DNA of 64,000 nt from assembly GCA_021234155.1 (NCBI GenBank), contig JAJEKV010000004.1:959813-1023812 (forward strand), read 5' to 3'. Positions 16,345 through 50,604 of the stretch are shown in pieces (the first letter of the stretch is position 1; every line of letters begins with the position of its first letter). Source of the stretch: Isoetes taiwanensis (taxonomy: Eukaryota; Streptophyta; Lycopodiopsida; Isoetales; Isoetaceae). Under the pieces are notes generated by a model. It saw nothing but the letters and a program-made list of their open reading frames with translations. It was not told the DNA's origin and did no database searches. The position numbers and the translations under genes were made by a program.

Positions 16345-17429
16345 ATGCAAGGCAAGGCGATGGCGATGGCGCTGGCGATGGTGGCAATTGCAGTGAGTGT
16401 GTTAGTGGCGGGAGCGTATGGGCGGGAGTTAGAATTGGATGGAGTATTGAGTGTGTCCACAGATTTAGATTTGCTGCTCCAAAGTGGAGCGCAGGACGAA
16501 TACTGTGGACCGGAGCTGTCCATCGAAACCGCCCAATGCACAGTCCTCAAGAAGACCCCCTCCTACGAAATCCGCCAGTACCCCGCAGGCCAGGTTCGCC
16601 CATTTCTTGCCCTTTTCTGCCCTTTGCTTTTCCCCCATTTCATCTTCCATTTTTTTATTTTTTATTTTTTTTTTCCCCACAGATTTGGGTTTCCACCCTT
16701 GTCAATGCCTCCTTCGATGAATCCAAATACACTGGTTTCTATCGGCTCTTTTATTTCATCTCTGGGAAGAATTCACGTGCCGAGAAGATTGAAATGACCG
16801 CACCTGTCCTCATTTGGCCCGAACCCAATCACCATGGTTATGTTATCTCATTCTTTGTCCCGCACAGGTTAGTTCTTATCTCTCGATAATCAGATAATCA
16901 ATTCAGTTCAATTCAATTCAATTGGGTTGTCTTCATCTAGGAACTAGAATTTACTAGATTGATAACATAGGAAGGGGCTTTGAAAAATCGAGGTAGCCAA
17001 ACAAACTTATAAACATTGCTCTTTGCCTTTGATTGAAGTGAGTAGCTGCTAGCTCTTTAACTATATTCAAATAGGATGTGTGTTTATAAACTTTTTTAGC
17101 ATTATGGTGAATATAATACTTTATCTTTCCCTCTATTTTTTATGTGTTTGCTTCTTGCAACCAGGTTTAAATCTGTTGAAGACTTGCCCAAGCCGCTAGA
17201 TAGTACCGTCTTTTTCCATGTAGAGGAAGAAGTAAATCGTGCAGTGGTTGGTCCTTTTGGTGGTTTTCCAACATTGTCTGACTATCAAGAGAAGTGGAAA
17301 CAATTGAAGGGAGTCTTGGATAGAGATGAAGTGAAGTATAATGAATTGTCTGTTACATATCTTGGATACAGTAGCCCTTTCCAATTTGTGGGGAGGAAAC
17401 AAGAAGTCTTTGTCAACTTATCCACATAG
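16345..17429 (+). CDS. SOUL family heme-binding protein with signal peptide
   Basis: Three exons: 16345-16593, 16683-16867 and 17165-17429. All introns are GT-AG; the phases join in frame and give 232 residues, a normal length for a plant SOUL protein. The product starts with about 10 residues containing Lys, then a hydrophobic Ala/Val-rich segment (residues ~6-25), consistent with a cleaved secretory signal peptide. The SOUL domain follows from about residue 55 to the C-terminus. Recognisable SOUL strings are YEIRQYP (residues ~74-80), EKIEMTAPV, ISFFVP and the 'LP.P.D..V' block (DLPKPLDSTV). Known SOUL/HBP proteins bind heme or other tetrapyrroles. The signal peptide suggests endomembrane or vacuolar rather than plastid location (inference). 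The first Met precedes the signal directly. It is the only intact host gene here; a TRIM lies 208 bp downstream. Confidence 0.93.
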
Positions 17430-19822: not shown

Positions 19823-20290
19823 AAGGAAGAAAGGAAGGAAGTATATTTTAACATCCGCGGAGGGCAAACCGGCCTATGAGACGGTATACGCACTAACAAA
19901 GAAGATAAAAACCACACCGAAAATACAAATGCTTCTATACAATGTGTCGCTACTACTGGGATGAAAAAACCCCTATGTGGGAGGAAAAAACCTGGTAGTA
20001 GGCTCTCAGATCCCCTGTCCCGTAATAGATACTACGGTAGACCTGCAAATTGTAGGACATGAGACATGCAAGCATCAACGATGCCAGCAAGTGATACAAC
20101 GGTGTCTCGGAGCATCTAAGATCAGCAGTGTTGCTCGGATGTGCATATATGTCGGACACTCCTGCAGAGCATGGTGCTCATCCTCTACTATTTGCATGTG
20201 GCAACACTGGCATATTCTCTCATGCCGGGGGATTCTCTACGCTTCACCCGTACTCCAGCGACGTGTTCCAATTCTGAGATGATGGGACCC
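19823..20290 (-). pseudogene. LINE #1, C-terminal part (zinc-knuckle) and 3' tail
   Basis: On the minus strand this encodes the conserved LINE ORF2 C-terminus: a GSH.LRI block, RW, then a C-x2-C...H-x4-C zinc-knuckle-like motif (ICQCCH, VEDEHHALQECP). It is colinear with the LINE at 53.26-53.40 kb (MGSHDLRI; ICRICDTGEVEDENHMINACP). An in-frame TAG precedes the knuckle. The segment is separated from the rest of the LINE (27511-28366) by the composite LTR element. The last 5 bases (GACCC, 20286-20290) are the target duplication. Confidence 0.88.
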
Positions 20291-22770
20291 TGTTAGCCTA
20301 AAACCTGGAATTTTAGTCTAACCTCAAAGGAAGTGCAAACAAACTGGTCAGGACCTCCAGATCACTTAGGGTGATCAATCCTCGATCATATAAAGCAAAA
20401 GAACTCAATTTGAAATGCTAGATTTCTCAAAATCACTACAGTCCCTGAAGCAAAAAAAACTGTCAGAACAAAAATCAGTTTAGCAGTCACACCCTTTAAG
20501 ATTTTTGAGTTTTGATTTTTGGTATGGTTTATAGACAAGTGGAGGAAGCTACTGGTGAAAGTCTGACTCGATTTGGATAGAGGAAGGCCAAGAAAATCTA
20601 TGTCAAAGTTCAGTAAAAAATTGGTCAATGCCAAAACAGAGAGCCAAAATTTGCAAATATAGTTTGGTGATGAATCTTGAGTTGGAATTTGTATAAACAG
20701 CTTCAAAATAAACTCTAGATCATGTGCATAAGGTTTTCTTGACAAGCAAACACTATGATATTTACTGAGATGGGCCAAAGTCTCGATTTCTGTCACAGTT
20801 TATGACAGTTATGGAAAAAACTATTTTTTCTTTGTTTTCTTTACATATAAGCAATACTCAAACCTTTTAAAGAATGGGACACGACTATTTAATTTGGATT
20901 CTACTTTAAATATCTGGTTTCTATTAGTTTAGACAGGCAGAACAACTTGAAACAAAAGAAGATGGAAACACTATTTGTCCAGGCAATGAATATGCATTCA
21001 AATCATAAGATATCACAGGAGTTTAGAATTCTCAGCAAGTAATACCCAGGATAATGCTTGAGAACAGATCCCAAGGCATTGTCAACTTCTGAAAACCCAA
21101 AAATTATCAGAAAGAGAAAATAATAAGATAATTTGAGTAGCAGTAGGAGTTTTGATGTCAAATAAGTCACAACAGAGTCGGTCTTCAATCAAAATACAGT
21201 CAATCTTCAATCTCGAGCAGGATTAGCAGAATTTGAGGTAGAACAGATCAAGAGAATATCAGGAATATAGAAATCGCCCAGATCACAGAGGTATATCTCC
21301 GAGGGGGGTGATGATTTGATCTGTGATGCTGGCTTAAGAACTGTTCTTCCCCAAAACTAGCTCGGCCGAGTGATTTTAGGCCTAATTTGAGCAATTTCTA
21401 TCAAACCAAGTGCCACAGAGGATCACCGAGGTCTCGGAAAAGGTTCAGGAGCTGATTTCGGGAGAAAATTGGCGGGATTCAATCAAGTTATGGCACGAAT
21501 TGGCCAGATTTAGCAGGTTCCCCTATTTCTTAGGGTTCATCGAAAAATTCTTGAAGGCCATATATCCCACAGGCTAAAATGATTCTGGAGGCTCATGTAT
21601 ATAAGGCTTAATGCTGACCCAGCTAATAACTGTGCGTGCCACGCAGAGGGGACACCCAGCCCGTGTCTGGCCCCCACGCCCTGCTGCCACGTGGAAATGA
21701 GAATGGAAATGGGGGGGGTGACGTGGAATGATGTAGAAATAGATAGGGTAAATAGGCTAGAATAGGTTTTTTCTTTTTTATTTTTATGGCACGCATCCCA
21801 AGAAATAATATTTGAGGAATTTTCCAAAGTCTTTTTTGAATTTTGGAAAGGCCAACATAGCTATTTTTTGCCAAGCTCCAAATCTAGAGTGTTTTCAAGT
21901 CAAATTGAGATACTTGAAATTTTGCCCATTTTGACCATGGTCAATGAGTTTTCAACCTTGGGAATGGTGAAAAAATCATAGGAAGAGGGTGAAAAGATAG
22001 GAAAAAAAAAAAAAAAAAAAGCTATGGCGGGATTTGGGGAAATAAGATGAAAGTAAAATTCAAGCCTCCTTGCTCTTGAAGTTTTTCATGATCTCTTGAG
22101 AGCAATTCACAAGTGGAGGTGAGGCCAATAAAAATATAGGTAGTGAAGTAATGAAAGAAGGCATGACAAGGTGGAAATGGGGTATAAAAAAGATGAAAGG
22201 AAAGTGGATATGGAATGGATGAAATGGATAAAGGATGGAAACCCCTCAGTAGCACATGATCTTATCTCCAAAGCTCAAATCATACCTCATAACTTTGCTC
22301 AAGGCCCTAGGGTCTTCCAAACTTCTAAAAGGTCTTCCAATCTTCAAGGCCTAAACAAGAGCAAAATTCACCTTTAAAGTGACATCTTCATAGGTGTGAC
22401 TTCCAAACCATTGGTGCAACTCCATTTAGCTCCATATGAGTAAATATGAGCAACATGCTTATAACTCCTTGTATAGCTTGCTATATCCTTTGCCTGGTCT
22501 TCAAGAAATAAGAATGTAACTAGAAAATTTCCTCAAAGGAAAGAATTAGGCTATACAACCAAGATCCCAAGGGTCTTCCAAACTTGAGCCAATTTCTTCC
22601 AAACTCTAGCAGGATCAAAATAACACTAACTCTTACCATATGAGTAATAGGAAAGTAACTTAAGATGAAACCTCAAAAGAAACCACAAGTCTTCCAAACT
22701 CTGACAAGTATCTTCCAATCTTGAAACTCTAGGTATCATGATGGTCCATGTTGCCCAAAAAGGGGCAACA
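20291..22770 (-). repeat. LTR-A, inverted copy (left palindrome arm)
   Basis: 2480 bp, near-identical in inverted orientation to 23046-25498. On the minus strand it starts TGTTGCCCC and ends GGCTAACA. It carries an A20 tract at 22001-22020 (about T10 in the other arm) and a GC-rich patch (21630-21700) where the arms disagree. A TATATA box lies on the minus strand near 21600. A 136-codon frame (20796-20386) is identical in both arms but resembles nothing known. Confidence 0.9.
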
Positions 22771-23045
22771 TCTTTATATGTAGAGGTTCATCCACTTTGA
22801 TTATCATTGTCATATGCAGGTTCATCCACTTCTTCTCCATATTCACCTGTCTTGAGTTGTCCTACCCTCCATTTGATCTTATTTTCTTATCACTCTCTCC
22901 ATTACCTTATACTCTGCCTCATATTTCCCACCACTGCAGAGTAATTCTATTCCCTCCACCACTTGTTGATATTTTGAAGACCTTCAGTTAGCATTTCTTT
23001 CCTTTGAGGCTGAGGGGACCAGCCTCATTCTTTCCTTTGAGGAGA
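22771..23045. other. Spacer of the palindrome, with polypurine-type hairpin
   Basis: Unique 275 bp between the arms. Near its right end a stem GAGGCT/AGCCTC (23006-23026) holds a GAGGGGACC loop. It is followed by pyrimidine-rich sequence and GAGGAGA just before LTR-A. The same loop on a different stem precedes LTR-B. No ORF is of interest. Confidence 0.7.
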
Positions 23046-25498
23046 TGTTGCCCCTTTTTGGGCAACATGGACCATCATGATACCTAGAGTTTCAAGATTG
23101 GAAGATACTTGTCAGAGTTTGGAAGACTTGTGGTTTCTTTTGAGGTTTCATCTTAAGTTACTTTCCTATTACTCATATGGTAAGAGTTAGTGTTATTTTG
23201 ATCCTGCTAGAGTTTGGAAGAAATTGGCTCAAGTTTGGAAGACCCTTGGGATCTTGGTTGTATAGCCTAATTCTTTCCTTTGAGGAAATTTTCTAGTTAC
23301 ATTCTTATTTCTTGAAGACCAGGCAAAGGATATAGCAAGCTATACAAGGAGTTATAAGCATGTTGCTCATATTTACTCATATGGAGCTAAATGGAGTTGC
23401 ACCAATGGTTTGGAAGTCACACCTATGAAGATGTCACTTTAAAGGTGAATTTTGCTCTTGTTTAGGCCTTGAAGATTGGAAGACCTTTTTAGAAGTTTGG
23501 AAGACCCTAGGGCCTTGAGCAAAGTTATGAGGTATGATTTGAGCTTTGGAGATAAGATCATGTGCTGCTGTGGGTTTCCATCCTTTATCCATTTCATCCA
23601 TTCCATATCCACTTTCCTTTCATCTTTTATACCCCATTTCCACCTTGTCATGCCTTCTTTCATTACTTCACTACCTATATTTTTATTGGCCTCACCTCCA
23701 CTTGTGAATTGCTCTCAAGAGATCATGAAAAACTTCAAGAGCAAGGAGGCTTGAATTTTACTTTCATCTTATTTCCCCAAATCCTGCCATAGCCTTTTTT
23801 TTTTCCTATCTTTTCACCCTCTTCCTATGATTTTTCACCATTCCCAAGGTTGAAAACTCATTGACCATGGTCAAAATGGGCAAAATTTCAAGTATCTCAA
23901 TTTGACTTGAAAACACTCTAGATTTGGAGCTTGGCAAAAATAGCTATGTTGGCCTTTCCAAAATTCAAAAAGACTTTGGAAAATTCCTCAAATATTATTT
24001 CTTGGGATGCGTGCCATAAAAAATAAAAAAGAAAAACCTATTCTAGCCTATTTACCCTATCTATTTCTACATCATTCCACGTCACCCCCCCCATTTCCAT
24101 TCTCATTTCCACGTGGCGGCGGGGGCGGGGCCCTGGCGGGGTGTCCCTCTCAAGGGCACGCATGCTATTAGTCGGGTCAGCATTAAGCCTTATATACATG
24201 AGCCTCCGTAATCATTTTAGCCTGTGGATATATGGCCTTCAAGAATTTTTCGATGAACCCTAAGAAATAGGGGAACTCAAACCGGCCAATTCGTGCCATA
24301 ACTTGATTGAATCCCGCCAATTTTCTCCCGAAATCAGCTCCTGAACCTTTTCCGAGACCTCGGTGATCCTCTGTGGCACTTGGTTTGATAGAAATTGCTC
24401 AAATTAGGCCTAAAATCACTCGGCCGAGCTAGTTTTGGGGAAGAACAGTTCTTAAGCCAGCATCACAGATCAAATCATCACCCCCCTGAGATATATACCT
24501 CTGTGATCTGGGCGATTTCTATATTCCTGATATTCTCTTGATCTGTTCTACCTCAAATTCTGCTAATCCTGCTCGAGATTGAAGATTGACTGTATTTTGA
24601 TTGAAGACCGACTCTGTTGTGACTTATTTGACATCAAAACTCCTACTGCTACTCAAATTATCTTATTATTTTCTCTTTCTGATAATTTTTGGGTTTTCAG
24701 AAGTTGACAATGCCTTGGGATCTGTTCTCAAGCATTATCCCGGTATTACTTGCCGAGAATTCTAAACTCCTCGTGATATCTTATGATTTGAATGCATATT
24801 CATTGCCTGGACAAATAGTGTTTCCATCTTCTTTTGTTTCAAGTTGTTCTGCCTGTCTAAACTAATAGAAACCAGATATTTAAAGTAGAATCCAAATTAA
24901 ATAGTCGTGTCCCATTCTTTAAAAGGTTTGAGTATTGCTTATATGTAAAGAAAACAAAGAAAAAATAGTTTTTTCCATAACTGTCATAAACTGTGACAGA
25001 AATCGAGACTTTGGCCCATCTCAGTAAATATCATAGTGTTTGCTTGTCAAGAAAACCTTATGCACATGATCTAGAGTTTATTTTGAAGCTGTTTATACAA
25101 ATTCCAACTCAAGATTCATCACCAAACTATATTTGCAAATTTTGGCTCTCTGTTTTGGCATTGACCAATTTTTTACTGAACTTTGACATAGATTTTCTTG
25201 GCCTTCCTCTATCCAAATCGAGTCAGACTTTCACCAGTAGCTTCCTCCACTTGTCTATAAACCATACCAAAAATCAAAACTCAAAAATCTTAAAGGGTGT
25301 GACTGCTAAACTGATTTTTGTTCTGACAGTTTTTTTTGCTTCAGGGACTGTAGTGATTTTGAGAAATCTAGCATTTCAAATTGAGTTCTTTTGCTTTATA
25401 TGATCGAGGATTGATCACCCTAAGTGATCTGGAGGTCCTGACCAGTTTGTTTGCACTTCCTTTGAGGTTAGACTAAAATTCCAGGTTTTAGGCTAACA
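23046..25498 (+). repeat. LTR-A, direct copy (right palindrome arm)
   Basis: 2453 bp, starts TGTTGCCCC and ends AGGCTAACA. A TATATA box near 24190 fits plus-strand transcription. It is preceded by a purine-rich hairpin (like a 3' LTR) and followed after 4 bases by a PBS-like sequence (like a 5' LTR). This fixes its U3-R-U5 orientation as plus. GC-rich 24112-24175 differs from the other arm. Confidence 0.9.
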
Positions 25499-25502
25499 TT
25501 TA

Positions 25503-25520
25503 TGGAGGTCCTACCGAGAT
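25503..25520 (+). promoter_or_regulatory. Primer-binding site, probably tRNA-Gln
   Basis: TGGAGGTCCTACCGAGAT begins with the TGG expected opposite tRNA CCA and lies 4 bases after LTR-A. From memory it is complementary, with about one mismatch or G-U pair, to the 3' end of plant tRNA-Gln. This needs alignment to a tRNA set. Confidence 0.6.
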
Positions 25521-26528
25521 ATAATCTTCCCCAAGATCATTCTTGGTGCTGTTTTCATTCTGCCATTGTTTTCATTCTGCCATGTTTATCACACTCTGTT
25601 TCTTTCCATTGCCTTGAGAACAAAGAAAAAGTCGTTGTTGAAGATGCTACAGAAAGAATACCCTGAAGAAAGAATGCATGAAGATGCTGCAGATAATGCT
25701 TCTTGAATATTTCAGGAAAGCCAGCAAGAAGCCAGCCCTCCACGAATTTCAAACCTTTTTTTTGTTCCCTGCCATAAAAATCAACTCTTTTATCTATTTC
25801 TTGCGTTTCTTGCTAGCTGCCAAGACCCAACTGTGACAAAAAGCCTGCATACAAAGCCTGCATACAGAGTTTGCAGAGGAAAGAAAGCAGAAAGAAATGT
25901 GAATGCCAAGCCCGCTAGCTCTGTGTTTGCGCTGAACCTGCAAAAGAGCAAGAAAGCAAGGAAATGGGAAGGAGAATAGAAGCAAAATGCCTGTTGCCGA
26001 TCTACAGAAGAAAGGAAATCAAGAATAAAAACCGTGTTGAAGAAGAGCCATCCGCCATAGCCGCTGTTCTCGTTGCCGCCCGCTTACAGAAATAGAGAGA
26101 AAAATATTTTCTGCCCTTTCTTGAAAATTGCCACGTCCACCTTTTCCACCATAATTTCCCTTTTTCACTCTCCTTTGCCCACGTTTAATTTTGCCTTGCT
26201 TTTCCCTTTTGCTTTTTGTTTTGCCACACTCCAAATTTTCCTCCACGTTGCCCCATTTGCCCCTTGTTATTTTTACCTACTCTCTTATTATGCCTTATCC
26301 ATCTACTATAGCCTACCTTACCTTGCACACATTATTACCATTTTTTGCACCTTCACACATTTTGTTTGGGCGTGCCCATCTCTCTAAGACCATTGCCCCA
26401 TGCATTTCAGCCGTACCCCAAGGCCAAACTTATCATTACTCTTCTATATCTTTCTCATGGCACATATCATTATGGTGTTGTTACATAGTATAGATGTATG
26501 CTTATGTACACACTACAAGTTATATTTT
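25521..26528 (+). other. Internal region of composite element, no gene
   Basis: No gag or pol similarity. Open frames up to 104 codons are Phe/Leu/Pro-rich and overlapping in several frames. The region carries only non-coding sequence between the PBS and the minisatellite. Confidence 0.6.
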
Positions 26529-26800
26529 GGTGTTGGAGTACACCCTAAAACCTCCAAGTATTATTATCATTTTATGGTGTTGGAGTACACCCAAAAACCT
26601 CCAAATATTATTATTATTCTATGGTGTTGGAGTACACCCTAAAACCTCCAAATATTATTATCATTCTATGGTGTTGGAGTACACCCTAAAACCTCCAAAG
26701 TTTTATTATCATTCTATGGTGTTGGAGTACACCCTAAAACCTCCAAAGTTTTATTATCATTCTATGGTGTTGGAGTACACCCTAAAACCTCCAAATTATT
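26529..26800. repeat. Minisatellite, 47/48-bp unit
   Basis: Six copies of a unit starting GGTGTTGGAGTACACCC, at 26529, 26576, 26623, 26670, 26718 and 26766. Each contains a small GGTGT/ACACC stem. The first three intervals are 47 bp and the last two are 48 bp. Confidence 0.9.
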
Positions 26801-26834
26801 GTACTCAAATGGAGAAGAAGAAGTTGAAGCATTT

Positions 26835-26853
26835 GGGCCGAGGGGACCGGCCC
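26835..26853 (+). promoter_or_regulatory. Polypurine-loop hairpin before LTR-B
   Basis: GGGCCGAGGGGACCGGCCC: a stem GGGCC/GGCCC presents the purine loop GAGGGGACC about 18 bases before the LTR. The homologous hairpin before LTR-A has the same loop but a different, still complementary stem. Confidence 0.65.
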
Positions 26854-26871
26854 ATTTTTGTTTACATGAGA

Positions 26872-27510
26872 TGTTGACCGGTTTTTGGCATTCCCGTCAA
26901 CATGGTAAAACCATGTAATCTTGTATGCTTAAAAGTGGAAGGGGGGTCAATTATAAAGCCCAAATGTTGTAAAGGTCTAAGGCACCAAAAAATTAAAGGG
27001 CCTAGATCTAGTTTAAATTTAAGGGCTTCTAAGATTTTTTGTTAGTGGTTGAAGAGGGGTACATTATCTAAGGCTAGGATGAAGAGGCAGAAATGAAGGG
27101 TAAAGATGAAGAGGCAAAAAATGATGGTGGAGATGAAGTGGTTGAGATGGATGGATGAGATTAAGGGGCAAGAATTATAAAAGAAAAATGAGGAGCACGA
27201 GCTCCTCCTCTCTCCCTGATCCACGATTCTTGAGAGGGTTCAGAGACCTCTCTTGATCATGGATTCAGAGGCCCTCCATGTTTCAGAGGCATGGAGGGCT
27301 ATTTACATTGTATTTCCTTCTTTTGTTCTTATAGATTGAAGATTATTTTGGGCCCAAGATTTTTCTTTATTTCTTGCTTCTGTCCAATCCATTCTAATCC
27401 ATTCTGTTTTGCATTGTAGCAGCCCTCTCATTCTTTATCTTGCAGCATCAAATCTTGATTCTTGCCTCTTGAGGCCACTTGTTGGGGATTGTGGGGAAAA
27501 TCCGTCAACA
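26872..27510 (+). repeat. LTR-B (3' LTR of composite element)
   Basis: 639 bp, TGTTGACCGG...TCCGTCAACA, with 9-10-bp terminal inverted repeats. It has a TATAAAAG box near 27176 and T-rich 3' sequence. Its first ~50 bases are related to LTR-A (TGTTG, a GT-CAACATGG hairpin), but the rest is not. It is followed directly by the GACCC target duplication. Confidence 0.85.
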
Positions 27511-28366
27511 GACCCCGTCCTCACGGAGGCAATAGCTCTCAGTTTCTTCATAGATATATGAGCTTTCAAGTACTGGTGTGGGCCATGTTCCAGTGATGTA
27601 TTAACCTACGTGCGATAGTGCTCTGTCTTAGGCTTCACAAGAGTGGCTACATTCCACAGAGTGGTAGCAAAGCGCTCATTCAGGTGCGCCTCCTGTCCCT
27701 CGGCATCAGGCATAGCCACAATCTGTTGGTAGTCGATAGACCATGTTGCGAACCACCCCTTACAATGCTCTCGCCATACTCTCTTCAGCCATTGTAGCCC
27801 TTGTGCCAATAACAAAGCCCTAGGGGAGAAGACGATGTGCGTCCATGCTATTGACCTTATGGAATATGCAAGATGTCTGCTCATAGCGGAATGTTGCCGG
27901 GGCCAAAAACTAGTCTCATAAAGCAAAATTTGATAAGGCACCGTGTCCTTTACACCTAGGTTGTATGTCAAAAAGGCCTTTTGCACCGTCTCTAGCTTAT
28001 CCCAGGTGTTCTTGCTAACCGCTGAACCCCAGATCTCTATCCCATACAACAGTACTGGTACAACGAGTGCTCTGAACAGGTGTGCTCTACGTGCCCAATC
28101 GCAGAGGCCTATTCTGTAGCAGCTATTCTGCATAGCATAGAGAGCTTTCCATCCTGTGCTGACCCTTTTTCCCACACAGTCATCCCATAGCATGCTAGTG
28201 GAGAAGTCGATTCCCAGATACTTGAAGGTTCTTACGACATCCACCTTCTGCCTCTGTAATAGAGATCTGGGATATCATGCTGCGAGGAGAGGATTGCCAG
28301 GAGCTTAGTTTTCTGCAGGTTCACTAGTCGATACCAGCCAGAGTCCCTTTCACTTATGGGTTAGGA
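27511..28366 (-). pseudogene. LINE #1, RT thumb and post-RT part
   Basis: The minus-strand frame 28244-27606 (212 codons) encodes LINE ORF2 sequence after the RT palm: FKYLGIDFS, GWKALYAMQN, VVPVLLYGIEIWG, QKAFLTYNLGV. Just upstream VNLQKTK (28320-28290) is the conserved block before it. The frame ends at TAG (27603-27605) but continues readable to the insertion point of the composite element. It is 5'-truncated at about 28366, so palm, fingers and endonuclease are missing. Its C-terminus lies at 20285-19823. Confidence 0.88.
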
Positions 28367-39948: not shown

Positions 39949-42900
39949 ACTTAGGAAGCTAGCCGACAAAAAAAATCGAATTTAAGTCCGGTACTATGCA
40001 TTAATTACGAATTTACGAATGTCTTGCTACCGCAAAAGCGGCCTTGACTTCTAACCGCCACAACGGAGGAGTACAGTCCAAACTCCATTCCGCTCGGGTC
40101 CGCTTGCTTCGCTTCTCAATCGCATGTGATTGGCCACGCCCCAAGCGCCAAAGACCAAAAAAGGCACCCAAAACGCAAAACCCCGCTAGAACCCGCAACT
40201 CATGTGGTTTACGCTTTGGAGGCTCTATGCTTGTCGATTTGACTAGGACCTTGCGCTCGTGTCTTGAGTAGAGGGGGGGGTGTTGACGCCTTGAGCACGG
40301 ATCCTAAAACCACCCCTGAAGCGGCTTGCCCCAAAAGTCCTCTCCCGGCCACCCGGGCGGACGGGCAACTTCCCCTCTCCGGAACCGTGATCTGTCTCTG
40401 CCAATGGACTCAGAACGTCAACATTGCCCTAGGGACCAAGTTTTGTGGCCAGAAGCCCACCCCTTCTCGAAGAAGCGCCAAACTATCTCATGTGCAACGC
40501 ACTCGTAGTCAATTGGCCTAGGAGGTGGCTGCTGAATACTACAATGTAGGGCGTAAGTGTTTCTTTCTTTTGCAAAACTGACTGTGTAACTTGGTCCCTA
40601 GGATAATTTTGGCATTCCGGACGATGTGGCAAAGTCGGATCGGCATTTCGGAGCCTCCGCAATGTCCGAACGACAAAACACTTTGGTTTCTACACTGTCG
40701 CCCGCAGGACGCTTCGCGGTTTGATATGTTCTCCCGGACGGATGTTGGATTTTTTTGGACCTTCTCGGACCAGGTTCCTGGAACAAAGGATTCAACGGTC
40801 GGATACGGGAACCGAGATCCGGGAGTGTGGTCTTTAGCGACGCCCCCGGCTGAGCCGCTGCCGAAAGGCTGCCTCGGGGAAGCTTTTTGGGGCTCGCCTC
40901 CGGGTTCTGACTCTCCCCTCTAATGAAGAGGCCTTGCAAGGTCCTGGCCTTGTTTGACTTGGGCAAGTGTGCTACCTCTCGCTGCCCAACAACAAAGTCG
41001 CCTTGACCGTTCTAGTGCAAACTATTTGATCTAAACCATATCCAAAATTTTTGAAAGTTGGCCTCAGAGTGTTGGCGATGACTTAGGAAGCTAGCTGACA
41101 AAAATCAGAATTTAAGTCCGTACTATGCATTAATTACGAATTTAATGTCTGTCTTCTACCGCAAAAGGCCCTTGACTTCTAACCGCCACAACGGGAGGAG
41201 TACAGGTCCAAACTCCATTCCGTCAGTTCCCCTTGCTTCGTTCTCAACTGCATGTGATCGGCCCACGCCCCAAGTGCAAAAGACCAAAACTCGGCACCCA
41301 AAACGCAAACCCTGCTAGAACCTGGCAACTCATAGGGTTTACGTTTCGGAGGCTCTATCCTTGTCAGATTTGACTAGGACCTTGCGCCGTGTCTTGACGT
41401 AGAGGGGGGGTGTTGACGCCAGAGCACGGACCCTAAAAACCACCCGGAAGCAGCTTGCCCCAAAATTCCTCTCCCGGAAGGCCACTCGGCGACGGACGGG
41501 CAACTTCCCTCTCCGGAACCGTGATCTGCCTCTCGCCAATGGACTCGGAACGTCCGACATTGCCCTAGGGACTAAGTTTTGTGGCCAGAAGCCCACCCCT
41601 TCTCGAAGAAGCGCCAAACTATCTCATGTGCAACACACTCGTAGTCAATTGGCCTAGGAGGTGGCTGCTGAATACTGCAATGTAGGGCGTAAGTGTTTCT
41701 TTCTTTTGCAAAACTGACCGCGTAACTTGGTCCCTAGGGTAATTTTGGCATTCCGGACGATGTGGCGAAGTCGGATCGGCATTTCGGAGCCTCCGCAATG
41801 TCCGAACGACAAAACACTTTGGTTTCTACACTGTCGCCCGCAGGACGCCTCGCGGTTTGATATGTTCTCCCGGACGGATGTTGGATTTTTTTGAACCTTC
41901 TCGGACCAGGTTCCTGGAACAAAGGATTCAACGGTCGGATACAGGAACCGAGATCCGGGAGTGTGGTCTTTAGCGTCGCCCGGGCCGGAGCCTTCCAGAA
42001 AGGTCTGTCTCGGGAAGCTTTTGGGGCTCGCCTCCCCGGGTTCGGACTCTCCCCTCTAATGAGGAGGCTTTGCACGGTCCCCGGCCTTGTTTGACTTGGG
42101 CAAGTGTGCCCATTTCGGCTGCCCAACAACAGGCTGCCCGGACTGTTCTAGTGCAAACTATTTGATCTAAACCTTATCCAAAATTTTTGAAAGTTGGCCT
42201 GTATGTTGGCGATGACTTAGGAAGCTAGCTGACAAAAAATCAGAATTTAAGTCCGTTGCTACTGCAAAAGCGGCCCTTGACTTCTAACTGCCACAACGGG
42301 AGGAGTACAGGTCCAAACTCCTTGCTTCGCGTTCTCAACTGCATGTGATCGGCCACGTCCCAAGTGCAAAAGACCAAAACTCGGCACCCAAAACGCAAAC
42401 CCTGCTAGAACCTGGCAACTCATAGGGTTTACGTTTCGGAGGCTCTATCCTTGTCAGATTTGACTAGGACCTTGCGCCGTGTCTTGACGTAGAGGGGGGG
42501 TGTTGACGCCAGAGCACGGACCCTAAAAACCACCCGGAAGCAGCTTGCCCCAAAATTCCTCTCCCGAAGGCCCTGGCGACGGACGGGCAACTTCCCCTCT
42601 CCGGAACCGTGATCTGTCTCTGCCAATGGACTCAGAACGTCGACATTGCCCTAGGGACCAAGTTTTGTGGCCAGAAGCCCACCCCTTCTCGAAGAAGCGC
42701 CAAACTATCTCACGTGCAACACAATGTAGGGCGTAAGTGTTTCTTTCTTTTGCAAAACTGACCGTGTAACTTGGTCCCTAGGGTAATTTTGGCATTCCGG
42801 ACGATGTGGCGAAGTCGGATCGGCATTTCGGAGCCTCCGCAATGTCCGAACGACAAAACACTTTGGTTTCTACGCTGTCGCCCGCAGGACGCTTCGCGGT

Positions 42901-45900
42901 TTGATATGTTCTCCCGGACGGATGTTGGATTTTTTTGGACCTTCTCGGACCAGGTTCCTGGAACAAAGGATTCAACGGTCGGATACGGGAACCGAGATCC
43001 GGGAGTGTGGTCTTTAGCGTACGCCCCCCCGGCGGAGCGCTGCCAGGAAAGGCTGCCTCGGGAAGCTTTTTGGGGCTCGCCTCCTGGGGTTCGGACTCTC
43101 CCCTCTAATGAGGAGGCCTTGCACGGTCCTGGCCTTGTTTGACTTGGGCAAGTGTGCCCACCGCGCCCAACAACAACGCTGCCCTGACCGTTCTAGTGCA
43201 AACTATTTGATCTAAACCATATCCAAAATTTTGAAAGTTGGCATGTATGTTGGCGATGACTTAGGAAGCTAGCCGACAAAAAATCAGAATTTAAGTCCGT
43301 ACTATGCATTAATTACGAATTTACGAATGTCTTGCTACGCAAAAGCGGCCCTTGACTTCTAACCGCCACACAACGGGAGGAGTACAGGTCCAAACTCCAT
43401 TCCGCCGGTTCCGCTTTTGCTTCAGCGTTCTCAATCGCATGTGATCGCCACGCCCCAAGTGCAAAAGACCAAAACTTCGGCACCCAAAACGCAAAAACCC
43501 CGCTAGAACCTCGCAACTCATAGGGTTTACGTTTGGGAGGCTCTATCCTTGTCGATTTGACTAGGACCTTGCGTAATGTCTTGAGGTAGAGGGGGTTGAC
43601 GCCTGGGGCACGGGACCCTAAAACCACCCGGAAGCGGCTTGCCCCAAAATTCCTCTCCGAAGGCCACAGCGACGGACGGGCAACTTCCCTCTCCTCGAAC
43701 CGTGATCTGTCTCGCCAATGGACTCGAACGCCGACATTGCCCTAGGGACCAAGTTTTGTGGCGTAAGCCCACCCCTTCTCGAAGAAGCAAACTATCTCAT
43801 GTGCAACACACTCGTAGTCAATTGGCCTAGGAGGTGGTCACTAATAATCTTTACAATGTAGGGCGTAAGTGTTTCTTTCTTTTGCAAAACCGACCGTGTA
43901 ACTTGGTCCCTAGGGTAATTTTGGCATTCCGGACGATGTGGCGAAGTCGGATCGGCATTTCGGAGCCTCCGCAATGTCCGAACGACAAAACACATTGGTT
44001 TCCACACTCACGCCCGCGACGCCAGCGATTTGATATGTTCTCCCGACGGATGTTGGATTTTTGGACCTTCTCTGACCAGGTTCCCGGAACAAAGGATTCA
44101 ACGGTCGGACACGGAACCGAGATCCGGGAGTGTGGTCTTTAGCGTCACGCCCGTGAGAAGCCCGCCGAAAAAGGCTGCCTCGGGAAGCTTTTTGGGGCTC
44201 GCCTCCGGGTTCGGACTCTCCCCTCTAATGAGGAGGCCTTGCATGGTCCCCGGCCTTGTTTGACTTGGGCAAGTGTGCCAATTTGGCTGCCCAACAACAA
44301 AGCCCGGACCGCTTCTAGTGCAAACTATTTGATCTAAACCATATCCAAAATTTTTGAAAGTTGGCCTCAGATGTTGGCGATGACTTAGGAAGCTAGCTGA
44401 CAAAAAATCAGAATTTAAGTCCGTACTATGCATTAATTACGAATTTACGAATGTCTTGCTACCGCAAAAGCGCCCTTGACTTCTAACCGCCACAACGGGA
44501 GGAGAGTACAGGTCCAAACTCCATTCCGCTGGTTCCGCTTGCTTCAAGCGTTCTAAACCGCATGTGATCGCCACGCCCCAAGTGCAAAAGACCAAAACTC
44601 TAAGACTCCAAAACGCAAAACCCCGCTAGAACCCCGCAACTCATAGGGTTTACGTTTCGAGGCTCTATCCCGTCGATTTTGACTAGGACCTTGCGCCATG
44701 TCTTGAGGTAGAGGGGGGTGTTGACGCCAGAGCACGGACCCTATAAACCACCCGAAGCAGCTTTGCCCCAAAATTCCTCTCCCGGCGTTCCACAGCGACG
44801 GACGGGCAACTTCCCTCCCGAACCGCGATATGTCTCTCGCCAATGGAGTCGAACGTCGACATTGCCCTAGGGACCAAGTTTTGTGGCCGAAGCCCACCCT
44901 TCTTGAAGAAGCGCCAAACTATCTCATGTGCAACACACTCAGTAGTCAATTGGCCTAGGAGGTGGCCGCCCGGTCGCAATGTAGGGCGTAGTGTTTCTTT
45001 CTTTTGCAAAACCGACCGCGTAACTTGGTCCCTAGGGTAATTTTGGCATTCCGGACGATGTGGCGAAAGTCGGATCGGCATTTCGAGCCCTCCGCAATGT
45101 CCGAACGACAAAACACTTTGGTTTCTACAATCGCCGCCGCAGACGCTTCGCGTTTGATATGTTCTCCCGACGGATGTTGGATTTTTTGGACCTTCGGACC
45201 CGTGTTCCCGGAACAAAGGATTCAATGGTCGGATACGGAACCGAGATCCCGAGTGTGGTCTTTAGCGCATCGCCCCGGCCGAGCGCCCGCCAAAAGGCTG
45301 CCTCGGGAAGCTTTTTGGGGCTCGCCTCCCCGGGTTCGGACTCTCCCCTCTAATGAGGAGGCCTTGCACGGCCCTGGCCTTGTTTGACTTGGGCAAGTGT
45401 GCCACCCTTCGCGCCCAACAACAAAGCCGCCCGGACCGCTCTAGTGCAAACTATTTGAATTAAACCATATCCAAAATTTTTGAAAGTTGGCCTTTGTGTT
45501 GGCGATGACTTAGGAAGCTAGCTGACAAAAATCAGAATTTAAGTCCGTACTATGCATTAATTACGAATTTACGAATGTCTTGCTATTTTTGCAAAAGCGG
45601 CCCTTGACTTCTAACGCCACAACGGAGGAGTACAGGTCCAAACTCCATTCCGTCAGTTCCGGGCTTTTGCCAGCGTTCTCAATTGCATGTGATCGCCACG
45701 CCCCAAGTGCAAAAGACCAAAACTCGGCACCCAAAACGCCAAACCACCGCTAGAACCCGGCAACTCATAGGGTTTACGTTTGGGAGGCTCTATCCTGTCG
45801 ATTTGACTAGGACCTTGCGCGGTCTTGAGGTAGAGGGGGTGTTGACGCCGCAGCACGGACCCTAAAACCACCCGGAAGCGGCTTTGCCCCAAAATTCCTC

Positions 45901-47300
45901 TCCGGCGGGCCACGGCGGCGGACGGGCAACTTCCCCTCCCGAACCGCGGATCTGTCTCGCCAATGGACTCGAACGCCGACATTGCCCTAGGGACCAAGTT
46001 TTGTGGCCGAAGCCCACCCCTTCTTGAAGAAGCCAAACTATCTCATGTGCAACACACTCGTAGTCAATTGGCCTAGGAGGTGGGCTGGCCATAACCGCAA
46101 TGTAGGGCGTAAGTGTTTCTTTTTGCAAAACCGACCGTGTAACTTGGTCCCTAGGGTAATTTTGGCATTCCGTGACGATGTGGCGAAGTCGGATCGGCAT
46201 TTGAGCCTCCGCAATGTCCAACGACAAAACACTTTGGTTTCTACACCGCCGCCCGCAGACGCCTTCAGCGTTTGATATGTTCTCCTGGACGGATGTTGGA
46301 TTTTTGGACCTTCTTGGACCAGGTTCCCGGAACAAAGGATTCAACGGGCCGGATACGGAACCGAGATCCTGAAGTGTGGTCTTTAGCGCACACCCCCTTG
46401 CGGAGCGCCGCCAGAAAGGTCGCCTCGAAGCTTTTGGGGCTCGCCTCCTCGGGTTCGGACTCTCCCTCTAATGAGGAGGCCTTGCAAGGTCCCGGCATTG
46501 TTTGACTTGGGCAAGTGTGCCAGCTCGGCTTAACAATAGGCTGCCCTGGACCGTTCTAGTGCAAACTATTTGATCTAAACCTTATCCAAAATTTTTGAAA
46601 GTTGGCCTCAGATGTTGGCGATGACTTAGGAAGCTAGCTGACAAAAAAAATCAGAATTTAAGTCCGTACTATGCATTAATTAGGAATTTACGAATGTCTT
46701 GCTACCGCAAAAGCGGCCCTTGACTTCTAAACCGCCACAACGGAGGAGTATGTCCAAACTCCATTCCGCCAGGGCTCCCTTTGCTTCAAGGCTCTCAATC
46801 GCATGTGATCGGCCACGTCCCAAGTGCAAAGACCAAAATCCGGCACCCCAAAACGCAAACCCCGCTAGAACCCGGCAACTCATAGGGTTTACGCTTTGAG
46901 GCTCTATCCTTGTCGATTTGACTAGGACCTTGCGCCGTGTCTTGAGGTAGAGGGGGTGTTGACGCCGAGAGCACGGACCCTAAAACCACCCGCAAGGCGG
47001 CTTGCCCCAAAATTCCTCTCCCGGCGGCCCCCGGGCGACGGACGGGCAACTTCCCTCCCCGAATCGCGGATCCATCTCGCCAATGGACTCGTAACGTCGA
47101 CATTGCCCTAGGGGACCAAGTTTTGTGGCCGTAAGCCCACCCCTTCTCGAAGAAGTGCCAAACTATCTCATGTACAACACACCCTAATCAATTGGTCTAG
47201 AGGTGGTCTGCTAACACCGCAAATGTAGGGCGTGGGGTGTCGCGTTTTTGTAAACCGACCGGTAACTTAGTCCATAGGGTAATTTTGGCATTCCAAACCA
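39949..47300. repeat. ~1.1-kb satellite array inside the CACTA element
   Basis: Six full units and a partial one. The landmark CTTAGGAAGCTAG occurs at about 39949, 41083, 42210, 43259, 44382, 45508 and 46626. The landmark TTGACGCC recurs at intervals of 1090-1130 bp. Units share GGTAATTTTGGCATTCCG and GTCGGATCGGCATTTCG. Differences between units are mostly small indels in GC-rich stretches. Open frames of 60-180 codons occur on both strands in several frames but are not conserved between units, so I do not call genes. Not recognised as rDNA. Confidence 0.93.
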
Positions 47301-47309
47301 TAAGCGCCA

Positions 47310-47363
47310 AGATAATTTTTTTTTTTTTTTTTTTTTTTTTTTCCCAAAAAAAAAAAAAAAAAA
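47310..47363. repeat. T33-CCC-A19 boundary
   Basis: Homopolymer pair between the satellite array and the right subterminal repeats, mirroring 35531-35582. Confidence 0.85.
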
Positions 47364-47915: not shown

Positions 47916-50604
47916 AAGATAACAATTAACACATAACTACTATTATAACATTAATTCACACAAATCATTACATCTAACAATTTTAAATTAAAATCTCCCT
48001 GAAACCCCCTTTGGTTTGGATGCATATTCACACGGGGGGTTACTCCGGGCAATGAGAGCTGTCGGATGGGCATATAACCCCTTTATTCCAAGATCTGGAC
48101 CGTACATAGCAATCCTCATTTGTGGGGTATGCATGTACAAGTTTTTGTATAGTGTACATATTCTAAACGAAGTGCACCCTGGACTGTCACAATCGTCGGA
48201 TTCGTCGATCCTACGACCCAGAATATATGTTGGGGCCTCTGCGCACCTTTCGTTTCGCTTATAGTCATTTATGATTGGAGGCGCCTATGATTTTGAAATA
48301 TGAAATACGATTTCGCCTAAGGTTTTCAGGGAATATCGAACCTCTATACGGCTTTGCCTAAGATTGATTCGAACCTCTACCAAAATAACTCAATGCCCTA
48401 ATAAGACTATTTTAACCAATGTAACTAATGAGCTAATATGATTATTTTTTATGTTGAATCTATGTTTTTTTTTTTTTTTTTTTTTTTTTATAACAACCTA
48501 TTCAATTGTTTTAGGGATATATAGTCTATGATTTCAGGAATTGTTATTCTTACATCCATATCAAATCCCCCTCGAACCCCCTGTTATTTTGCTACATAGT
48601 CTAAACGGCGCACCCCTCGATCACGATTAAAATATTCGTCGATCCTACGACCCAGAATATATGTTGGGGCCTCTGCGCACCTTTCGTTTCACTTATAGTC
48701 ATTTATGATTGGAGGCGCCTACGATTTTGAAATATGAAATAATGATTTAAAAGCTAAGGTTTTGAGGGAATATCGAACCTCTATACGGCTTTGCCTAAGA
48801 TTATAGAATATGAAATATGGGGATTCGAACCTCTACCAAAATAACTTAATGCCCTAATAAGACTATTTTAACCAATATACCTAGTGAGCTAATGTGATTA
48901 TTTCTTATGTTGAATCTATGTGTTTTTTTTTTATAACAATCTGTTCAATTGTTTTAGGGATATATAGTCTATGGTTTCAGGAATTGTTATTCTTACATCC
49001 ATATCAAATCCCCCTGGAACCCTCTGTTATTTTGCTACATAGTCTAAACGAAGTGCACCCTGGACTGTCACAGTCGTCGGATTCGTCGATCCTACGACCC
49101 AGAATATATGTTGGGGCCTCTGCGCACCTTTCGTTTCACTTATAGTCATTTATGATTGGAGGCGCCTACGATTTTGAAATATGAAATACGATTTCGCCTA
49201 AGGTTTTGAGGGAATATCGAACCTCTATACGGCTTTGCCTAAGATTATAGAATATGAAATATGGGGATTCGAACCTCTACCAAAATAACTTAATGCCCTA
49301 ATAAGACTATTTTAACCAATATACCTAGTGAGCTAATGTGATTATTTCTTATGTTGAATCTATGTGTTTTTTTTTTATAACAATCTGTTCAATTGTTTTA
49401 GGGATATATAGTCTATGGTTTCAGGAATTGTTATTCTTACATCCATATCAAATCCCCCTGGAACCCTCTGTTATTTTGCGACATATTCTAAACGAGGTGC
49501 ACCCTGGACTGCCACAGTCGTCGGATTCGTCGATCCTACGACCCAGATTGTATGTTGGAGCCTCTGCGCACCTTTCATTTCGCTTATTGTCATTTATGAT
49601 TGGAGGCGCCTATGATTTTGAAATATGAAATATGATTTCGCCTAAGGTTTTGAGGGAATATCGAACCTCTATACGGCTTTGCCTAAGATTTTAGAATATG
49701 AAATATGGGAATTCGAACCTCTACCAAAATAACTCAATGCCTTAATAAGACTATTTTAACCAATGTACCTAGTGAGCTAATGTGATTATTTCTTATGTTG
49801 AATCTATGTGTTTTTTTTTTTTTATAACAATCTATTCAATTGTTTTAGGGATATATAGTCTATGGTTTCAGGAATTGTTATTCTTACATCCATATCAAAT
49901 CCCCCTGGAACCCCCTGTTATTTTGCTACATATTCTAAACGTGGTGCACCCTGGACTGCCACAGTCGTCGGATTCGTAGACCCTATGACCCAGATTGTAT
50001 GTTGGAGCCTCTGCGCACCTTTTGTTTTGCTTATAGTCATTTATGATTGGACGCGCCTATGATTTTGAAATATGAAATACGATTTCGCCTAAGGTTTTGA
50101 GGGAATATCGAACCTCTATACGGCTTTGCCTAAGATTTTAGAATATGAAATATGGGGATTCGAACCTCTACCAAAATAACTCAATGCCTTAATAAGATTA
50201 TTTTAACAAATGTACCTAGTGAGCTAATGTGATTATTTCTTATGTTGAATCTATGTGTTTTTTTTTTATAACAATCCATTCAATTGTTTTAGGGATATAT
50301 AGTCTATGGTTTCAGGAATTGTTATTCTTACATCCATATCAAATCCCCCTGGAACCCCCTGTTATTTTGCTACATATTTAAGGTTTGCAAAATACTATAA
50401 GGTTTGAGAGAATGCACTTAATGGTGTTAATTTTGTACATGTATTATAAGTTTTTAGGGGCTCTCGCTGCCCTACATAACCCCCCCGTGTGAATATGCAC
50501 CCAAACCAAAGGGGGTTTCAGGGGGATTTTAATTCAAAATTGTTAGATGTAATGGTTTGTGTTAATTAATGTTATAATAGTAGTTATGTGTTAATTGTTA
50601 TCTT
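47916..50604. mobile_element. 2.7-kb TIR element carrying five tandem 445-bp units
   Basis: Inverted repeats of ~125 bp (47916-48040 and 50481-50604) start AAGATAACAATTAACACATA and differ at only a few sites. The outer interior matches the short copy at 28732-29412. No transposase ORF. Copies of the 445-bp unit fill 48160-50380. Confidence 0.85.
48160..50380. repeat. Pentameric array of the 445-bp unit
   Basis: CGTCGATCCTACGACC landmarks at 48203, 48637, 49084 and 49528, degenerate at 49976 (spacing 434-448). Units 3 and 4 are almost identical; unit 2 has a scrambled start. Each ends CCCCTGTTATTTTGCTACAT. The ORFs beginning MIISYVESMCFFF recur with the repeat and are not independent genes. 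Confidence 0.93.

Follow-up and report, generated by a model that had tools for sequence, protein, structure and literature searches.

Introduction

An integrated LTR retrotransposon is usually recognized by outer LTRs that are direct copies of one family, by one U3 end and one U5 end, and by a target-site duplication whose length is fixed and which flanks both termini. The element described here occupies positions 20291-27510 (7220 bp) of a stretch of 64,000 nucleotides from Isoetes taiwanensis (contig JAJEKV010000004.1, positions 959,813 to 1,023,812), referred to below as the window. It is flanked by GACCC at both termini, its outer LTRs are an inverted LTR-A on the left and a direct LTR-B on the right, and both of its outer ends are U5 ends. 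How could such a molecule be made and inserted?

The genome was searched as an assembly of 1.66 Gb in 1110 contigs. The genome counts given below are lower bounds, and a feature said to occur “only” at one place does so among the best ~40 candidates scored in each search. Elsewhere in the window there are two tandem arrays, at 39970-47310 (unit ~1.12 kb, GC-rich) and at 48042-50385 (unit 444 nt), and an open frame at 17100-17429 that matches a SOUL haem-binding protein (E 3.1e-12).

Results

Architecture of the element

From left to right, the element is composed of an inverted LTR-A, a filler, a piece of A interior, a direct LTR-A, a primer site, a B interior and an LTR-B:

20286..20290, unstranded: target-site duplication GACCC, left copy, abutting the left outer terminus
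20291..22770, minus strand: LTR-A, inverted (locus L002), U5 terminus outward and U3 inward, with neither a purine tract before U3 nor a primer site after U5
22771..22795, unstranded: filler of 25 nt, starting with TCT and holding a copy of AGGTTCATCCACTT
22796..23045, plus strand: 3' end of the A interior, 250 nt, including a purine-rich tract, preceding the direct LTR-A
23046..25498, plus strand: LTR-A, direct, with a purine tract before it and a primer site after it
25499..25520, plus strand: linker TTTA and 18-nt primer-binding site TGGAGGTCCTACCGAGAT, complementary to tRNA-Gln(CTG) plus CCA
25521..26871, plus strand: B interior (small element), containing a minisatellite of 47-48-nt units and, ahead of LTR-B, a purine-rich hairpin
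26872..27510, plus strand: LTR-B, direct, its U5 terminus being the right outer end
27511..27515, unstranded: target-site duplication GACCC, right copy, abutting the right outer terminus
27516..28274, resuming at 20290 downwards, minus strand: host LINE-like frame split by the element, its putative family suggested by a motif

These parts, their polarity, both joints and the duplication can be read directly in the sequence. The U5 outer termini of A and B both end in AACA. A preliminary description of the locus had treated it as one LTR element, which did not survive, because LTR-A and LTR-B belong to two element families; the reading that holds is of an A/B hybrid of two LTR families with U5 at both outer ends.

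Target site

The outer flanks read GACCC/TGTTAG on the left and CAACA/GACCC on the right, i.e., the duplication of GACCC claimed for the element's ends is present as exact copies on both sides. A 5-nt flank match is expected by chance in 0.15% of cases (200,000 random 7220-bp segments of the same 64-kb window). When the element is cut out together with one GACCC, the minus-strand host frame reads ASVRT followed directly by GSHHLRIGTRRW, with a cysteine-rich stretch further on, and the joined frame presumably represents a LINE C-terminus, which it resembles. This frame had been offered as proof of the ends. The join does give the expected reading; the LINE identity is putative, and a Pfam search of the right-flank frame gave no family at E 0.1. 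The open length across the join is 47 aa with one GACCC removed and, when both remain, 65 aa in one frame. Because stops belonging to the LINE frame itself occur on either side, this length cannot decide on the insertion.

The flanks also bear on the possibility that a normal A or B element was altered after insertion, by an inversion, gene conversion or a second insertion. Events of this kind are common for LTR elements (PMC1950507), but here both outer termini abut GACCC exactly, and no ordinary starting element has U5 on both sides. Nor does either LTR-A copy carry a 5-nt flanking repeat of its own, a check that had been named for LTR-A copies arriving as separate later insertions. We consider such a rearrangement very improbable.

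Family A and the polarity of its LTRs

A query with LTR-A returned at least 45 genome matches, of which 35 extend over the whole LTR or nearly so; among the full-length matches, the window pair is the only close pair in opposite orientation. Five A elements have LTRs of the same orientation 9.64-9.67 kb apart, start to start, which together with the 2.45-kb LTR-A gives an element of ~12.1 kb. Pieces downstream of the 5' LTR match Retrotrans_gag (PF03732, E 8.5e-08, in L006) and the CCHC knuckle (PF00098, E 1.4e-04, in L011), i.e., A has the gag domain and knuckle of a Ty3/gypsy-type element, as seen within at most 1.5 kb beside the LTRs. All five of the A elements in which both LTRs were read carry 5-nt duplications (GGTCT, CCTCC, AACCC, ATGCT and CCTAC), and a solo LTR-A (L028) has TATGC on both sides; these repeats are of the same length as GACCC.

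The polarity of LTR-A was determined from 30 loci read with 1.5 kb on each side, 28 of which lie outside the window. A primer site follows the U5 (AACA) end in 12 of the 28, and a purine-rich tract ending in GAGGAGA precedes the U3 (TGTTG) end in 14 of the 28, while the reverse polarity was found in none of these 28 copies. Because the 12 and 14 copies agree and none is contrary, both outer ends of the window element are U5 ends, of two families. The original assignment of orientation from a primer-binding-like site after LTR-A and purine hairpins before LTR-A and LTR-B is thereby borne out, as are the reading of the left end as the U5 end of an inverted LTR-A and of the right end as that of a different LTR-B; intact relatives with LTR-A in the opposite polarity, proposed as a check, did not appear among the 28. 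The right LTR-A of the window is the only one of the 30 loci with both a purine tract before it and a primer site after it, as expected of an inner LTR in a complex.

Two of the 28 copies, L028 and L018, have neither signal. L018 is an LTR-A with unmatched flanks, and is perhaps another rearranged insertion.

Family B

The B interior (25499-26871) has one full-length relative among the best ~40 candidates, at C1028:433842-435204. This copy (L032) has an interior of 1.37 kb, lies between two LTR-B copies that are alike at 638/641 positions, and is flanked by the duplication AGCCA/TGGCT. Apart from length changes in repeats, the window interior is identical to it at 1292/1314 positions, and the window LTR-B is identical to its two LTRs at 629/637 and 633/638 positions, respectively. 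A query with LTR-B gave at least 44 matches, several of which form direct pairs at distances of 1.9-2.8 kb. These pairs and the full copy between two LTR-Bs identify B as a small element of its own. In the window interior no retroelement open reading frame was recognized among stop-to-stop frames (longest 127 aa), and B presumably depends on A. The minisatellite of 47-48-nt units lies at 26526-26805, and the number of units differs in the C1028 copy.

The shared primer site and the A/B joint

The primer site occurs as TGGAGGTCCTACCGAGAT and as a variant with GGTTC. A first, stricter tRNA pattern had no match in the genome, and a looser one found three places (L065-L067), all of which are tRNA-Gln(CTG) genes according to ARAGORN. 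Two of these genes end in GGTAGGACCT and one in GGTAGAACCT; with CCA added, these ends exactly complement both primer-site variants seen in A and B. An RNA-family search of the window gave no hit that reached the gathering score.

A 191-nt probe across LTR-A, primer site and B finds a full match only at the window among 40 scored candidates. On contig C161, probe positions 1-145 match at 92%, and the other 38 candidates match only over 1-111, i.e., the end of LTR-A plus the primer site. The switch between A and B is located within the interval from the end of the LTR to the 3' edge of the primer site. Next to the LTR, the linker is TTT or TTTT at A sites and mostly AAA at B sites (TTA in 4/16), and the TTTA of the window was seen in no other site read. 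Among 16 distinct B sites (L061, a repeat of L032, being excluded and a site present in both L044 and L053 counted once), 11 have GGTTC and five have GGTCC, the variant found in A sites. Because TTTA is ambiguous and the B sites are mixed, the exact border from A to B is not given by the linker or the primer site. An assignment of linker plus primer site as clearly A-type was dropped on account of this 11/16 to 5/16 mixture.

The C161 locus is a second A/B recombinant. It was read at 149900-150320, 152600-154800 and 161300-165000 (L062-L064), and is composed of an LTR-A (150253-152721), a B-type interior, an LTR-B (from 154055), a primer site with the start of A gag and, further on, the 3' end of the A interior, a purine tract and an LTR-A that ends at 164292. 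It is an A/B complex of three LTRs, and a 5-bp duplication of its own, CTATT, flanks it on both outer sides. Its joint from LTR-B to A is complete only there among 40 scored candidates. Only the two ends of its B interior (55 nt at the start, 42 nt at the end) match that of the window, which identifies it as belonging to another B subfamily. An A/B joint of the same kind at a second locus supports strand switching between A and B. In both insertions, a minus strand at its primer site would have run on along the LTR of the other element and, beyond U3 and the purine tract, entered the interior of that element; at C161 it would have passed through the whole of B and then ended normally.

The inverted arms

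Positions 20291-22773 pair with 23043-25498 in collinear blocks around a centre of 269 nt. Complementarity of the blocks is mostly 94-100%, apart from a GC-rich stretch in which one block of 27 nt reaches 78%. The “palindromic core” of the preliminary description is thus a real inverted repeat of LTR-A, but an imperfect palindrome: the two copies are separated by 275 nt, i.e., 25 nt of filler and the 250-nt 3' end of the A interior.

The arms are 2480 (left) and 2453 (right) nt long and differ by 36 substitutions at 2451 aligned sites and by 14 gaps; the LTR pairs of five ordinary A elements differ at 48, 85, 90, 101 and 115 sites. In the U5-ward half, the arms are 99.35% alike, and the best of 12 relatives chosen from the 28 read reaches 96.9%. 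The arms are at least as alike as ordinary LTR pairs, which fits one reverse-transcription event. Of the 36 substitutions, 23 fall in LTR positions 1031-1300. Each of the six LTR pairs compared has 18-38 differences in this stretch, which is therefore variable or noisy everywhere. This GC-rich stretch (window 24076-24345 and its inverted mate) is either hypervariable or badly assembled.

That the GC-rich stretch differs in every pair, and that the consensus may be noisy there, can be brought forward for an artefact of assembly or library preparation, such as a fold-back read. From a fold-back one would expect no exact target-site duplication where the reversed LTR ends and no unique filler, and the arms differ in both length and sequence, which makes an artefact exceedingly unlikely.

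Near-identical inverted arms would also result if a strand had folded back at the end of LTR-A and copied itself into a palindrome, and a perfect 8-bp hairpin at the U3 terminus of A could have promoted such folding. Fold-back at the hairpin predicts a loop of 6 nt rather than 275 nt with a one-sided 250-nt piece of A interior. Furthermore, the copy would not stop at the U5 terminus but continue beyond it through the primer site to B. The earlier proposal had been template switching or self-primed cDNA; the former is favored here, and simple self-priming is very improbable. The hairpin of A lies at window 23046-23067, and the U3 terminus of the B copy L032 has a 12-bp hairpin (window counterpart 26872-26902).

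The inner joint and its filler

The inner end of the left LTR-A is its U3 terminus plus 3 nt. The filler that follows starts with TCT, a 3-nt match to the complement of AGA, the trinucleotide found just before U3 in A elements, and contains a 14-nt copy of AGGTTCATCCACTT, which recurs 34 nt downstream. A search for other genomic copies of the inverted-A/A/B structure, as had been suggested, found the joint (22711-22870) complete only in the window among 40 scored candidates; the 39 other loci carry both halves, with the A interior leading into U3 as is normal. We rejected autointegration of the U3 end of LTR-A into the A interior, because positions 22774-22795 are unmatched in these 39 loci, and the site was therefore not an ordinary A target.

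Discussion

Origin of the composite element

The best explanation, and in our view the probable one, is that A and B were reverse transcribed together, with template switching, and integrated through two U5 ends. The RNAs of the 12-kb A element and the small B element would have been packaged in one particle, as we infer, and copied together. Minus-strand DNA of B, having reached its primer site, would then have been extended along the plus strand of A by means of the shared tRNA-Gln primer-site sequence, through LTR-A, the purine tract and then 250 nt of the A interior. Because these 250 nt were copied, the plus strand of A would have begun upstream of the usual purine-tract start. The growing strand may then have stalled and repeated a short local sequence, which would account for the filler, before it switched at the boundary between purine tract and U3, over the 3-nt match, onto minus-strand DNA of another LTR-A. 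The reversed strand would have copied U3, R and U5 to the natural strand end. The product would be a linear DNA that ends in U5 of A on one side and in U5 of B on the other, and integrase could have joined both ends into the host LINE with a 5-nt stagger, leaving GACCC twice. The order of the switches and the enzyme behind the inverted joint are inferred in this scheme.

The inner joint could also have been made by end joining. Here, a DNA composed of LTR-A only, with both natural ends, would have been joined by the host, before integration, to an A/B hybrid with a break 250 nt into the A interior, and integrase would then have used the two remaining U5 ends, a possibility that we regard as rather unlikely. 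A 25-nt filler with a local repeat, a 14-nt copy taken from 34 nt away, fits end joining equally well, as do the 3-nt match at the joint and an inner end of the left LTR-A that falls at the U3 terminus plus 3 nt, and joined LTR ends are described for circles of LTR elements (PMC9694575). However, end joining requires an LTR-only duplex plus a second, independent break, and it leaves unexplained the joint of LTR-A, primer site and B, which needs switching by reverse transcriptase anyway. A single switching process covers both joints more simply, and on the sequence we favor switching by reverse transcriptase over end joining of cDNAs.

Implications

With an origin by template switching, the locus would be a natural record of one reverse-transcription accident, fixed by integration. 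If this is true, the integrase of a retrotransposon is able, in a living genome, to bring together two U5 ends that come from different families, and a large element and its small partner were copied in the same particle. As a tentative generalization, A particles may regularly make A/B chimeras at the tRNA-Gln site, and the A integrase may not need a U3 and a U5 end together, in which case two-U5 insertions would be recurrent but overlooked. Annotation programs would miss them because they search for direct LTR pairs; the locus is thus a warning that finders demanding such pairs miss or misread these insertions. The C161 complex offers a second A/B recombinant for gauging the frequency.

Comparison with known systems

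In soybean, LTR swapping between autonomous and nonautonomous elements was reportedly described by Du et al. in 2010, and there, as here, a large element and a small partner would have exchanged LTRs; an inverted LTR or two U5 ends are not known to be part of that case. Among the titles listed by a search of largely open-access full texts, none described an integrated element with two U5 ends.

Among the elements Angela, Squiq and Opie of grasses there are complexes with several LTRs and one target-site duplication, attributed to switching between co-packaged RNAs (Sabot and Schulman 2007, PMC1950507). The window element shares with them an extra internal LTR, here LTR-A, the involvement of more than one element and a single duplication, GACCC. 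In the grass complexes, all LTRs are direct, the outer LTRs are alike and the ends are U3 and U5, whereas the window element has outer LTRs from two families, one of them inverted, and U5 at each end; the grass complexes also have two complete cores, and the window element has only 250 nt of the A interior. The C161 locus is, judging from its sequence, a template-switch complex of the published kind, but from two families.

An intermolecular second-strand transfer has been proposed for recombinants of HIV-1, and there, as here, the primer site is where the LTR of one template meets the interior of another; the transfer yields ordinary proviruses, without inversion (PMC5651808). Autointegration products and end-joined circles of LTR elements are likewise aberrant cDNAs with LTR ends joined elsewhere, but the forms described in PMC9694575 are circles, whereas the window element would derive from a linear molecule integrated through two U5 ends, and its inner joint is found in no contiguous A sequence among the 39 other loci. 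In vitro integrase assays work with short DNAs of one end type, consistent with PMC11054761. Set beside these systems, the element is a single, rare product that adds to template-switch complexes the feature of two U5 ends of different families.
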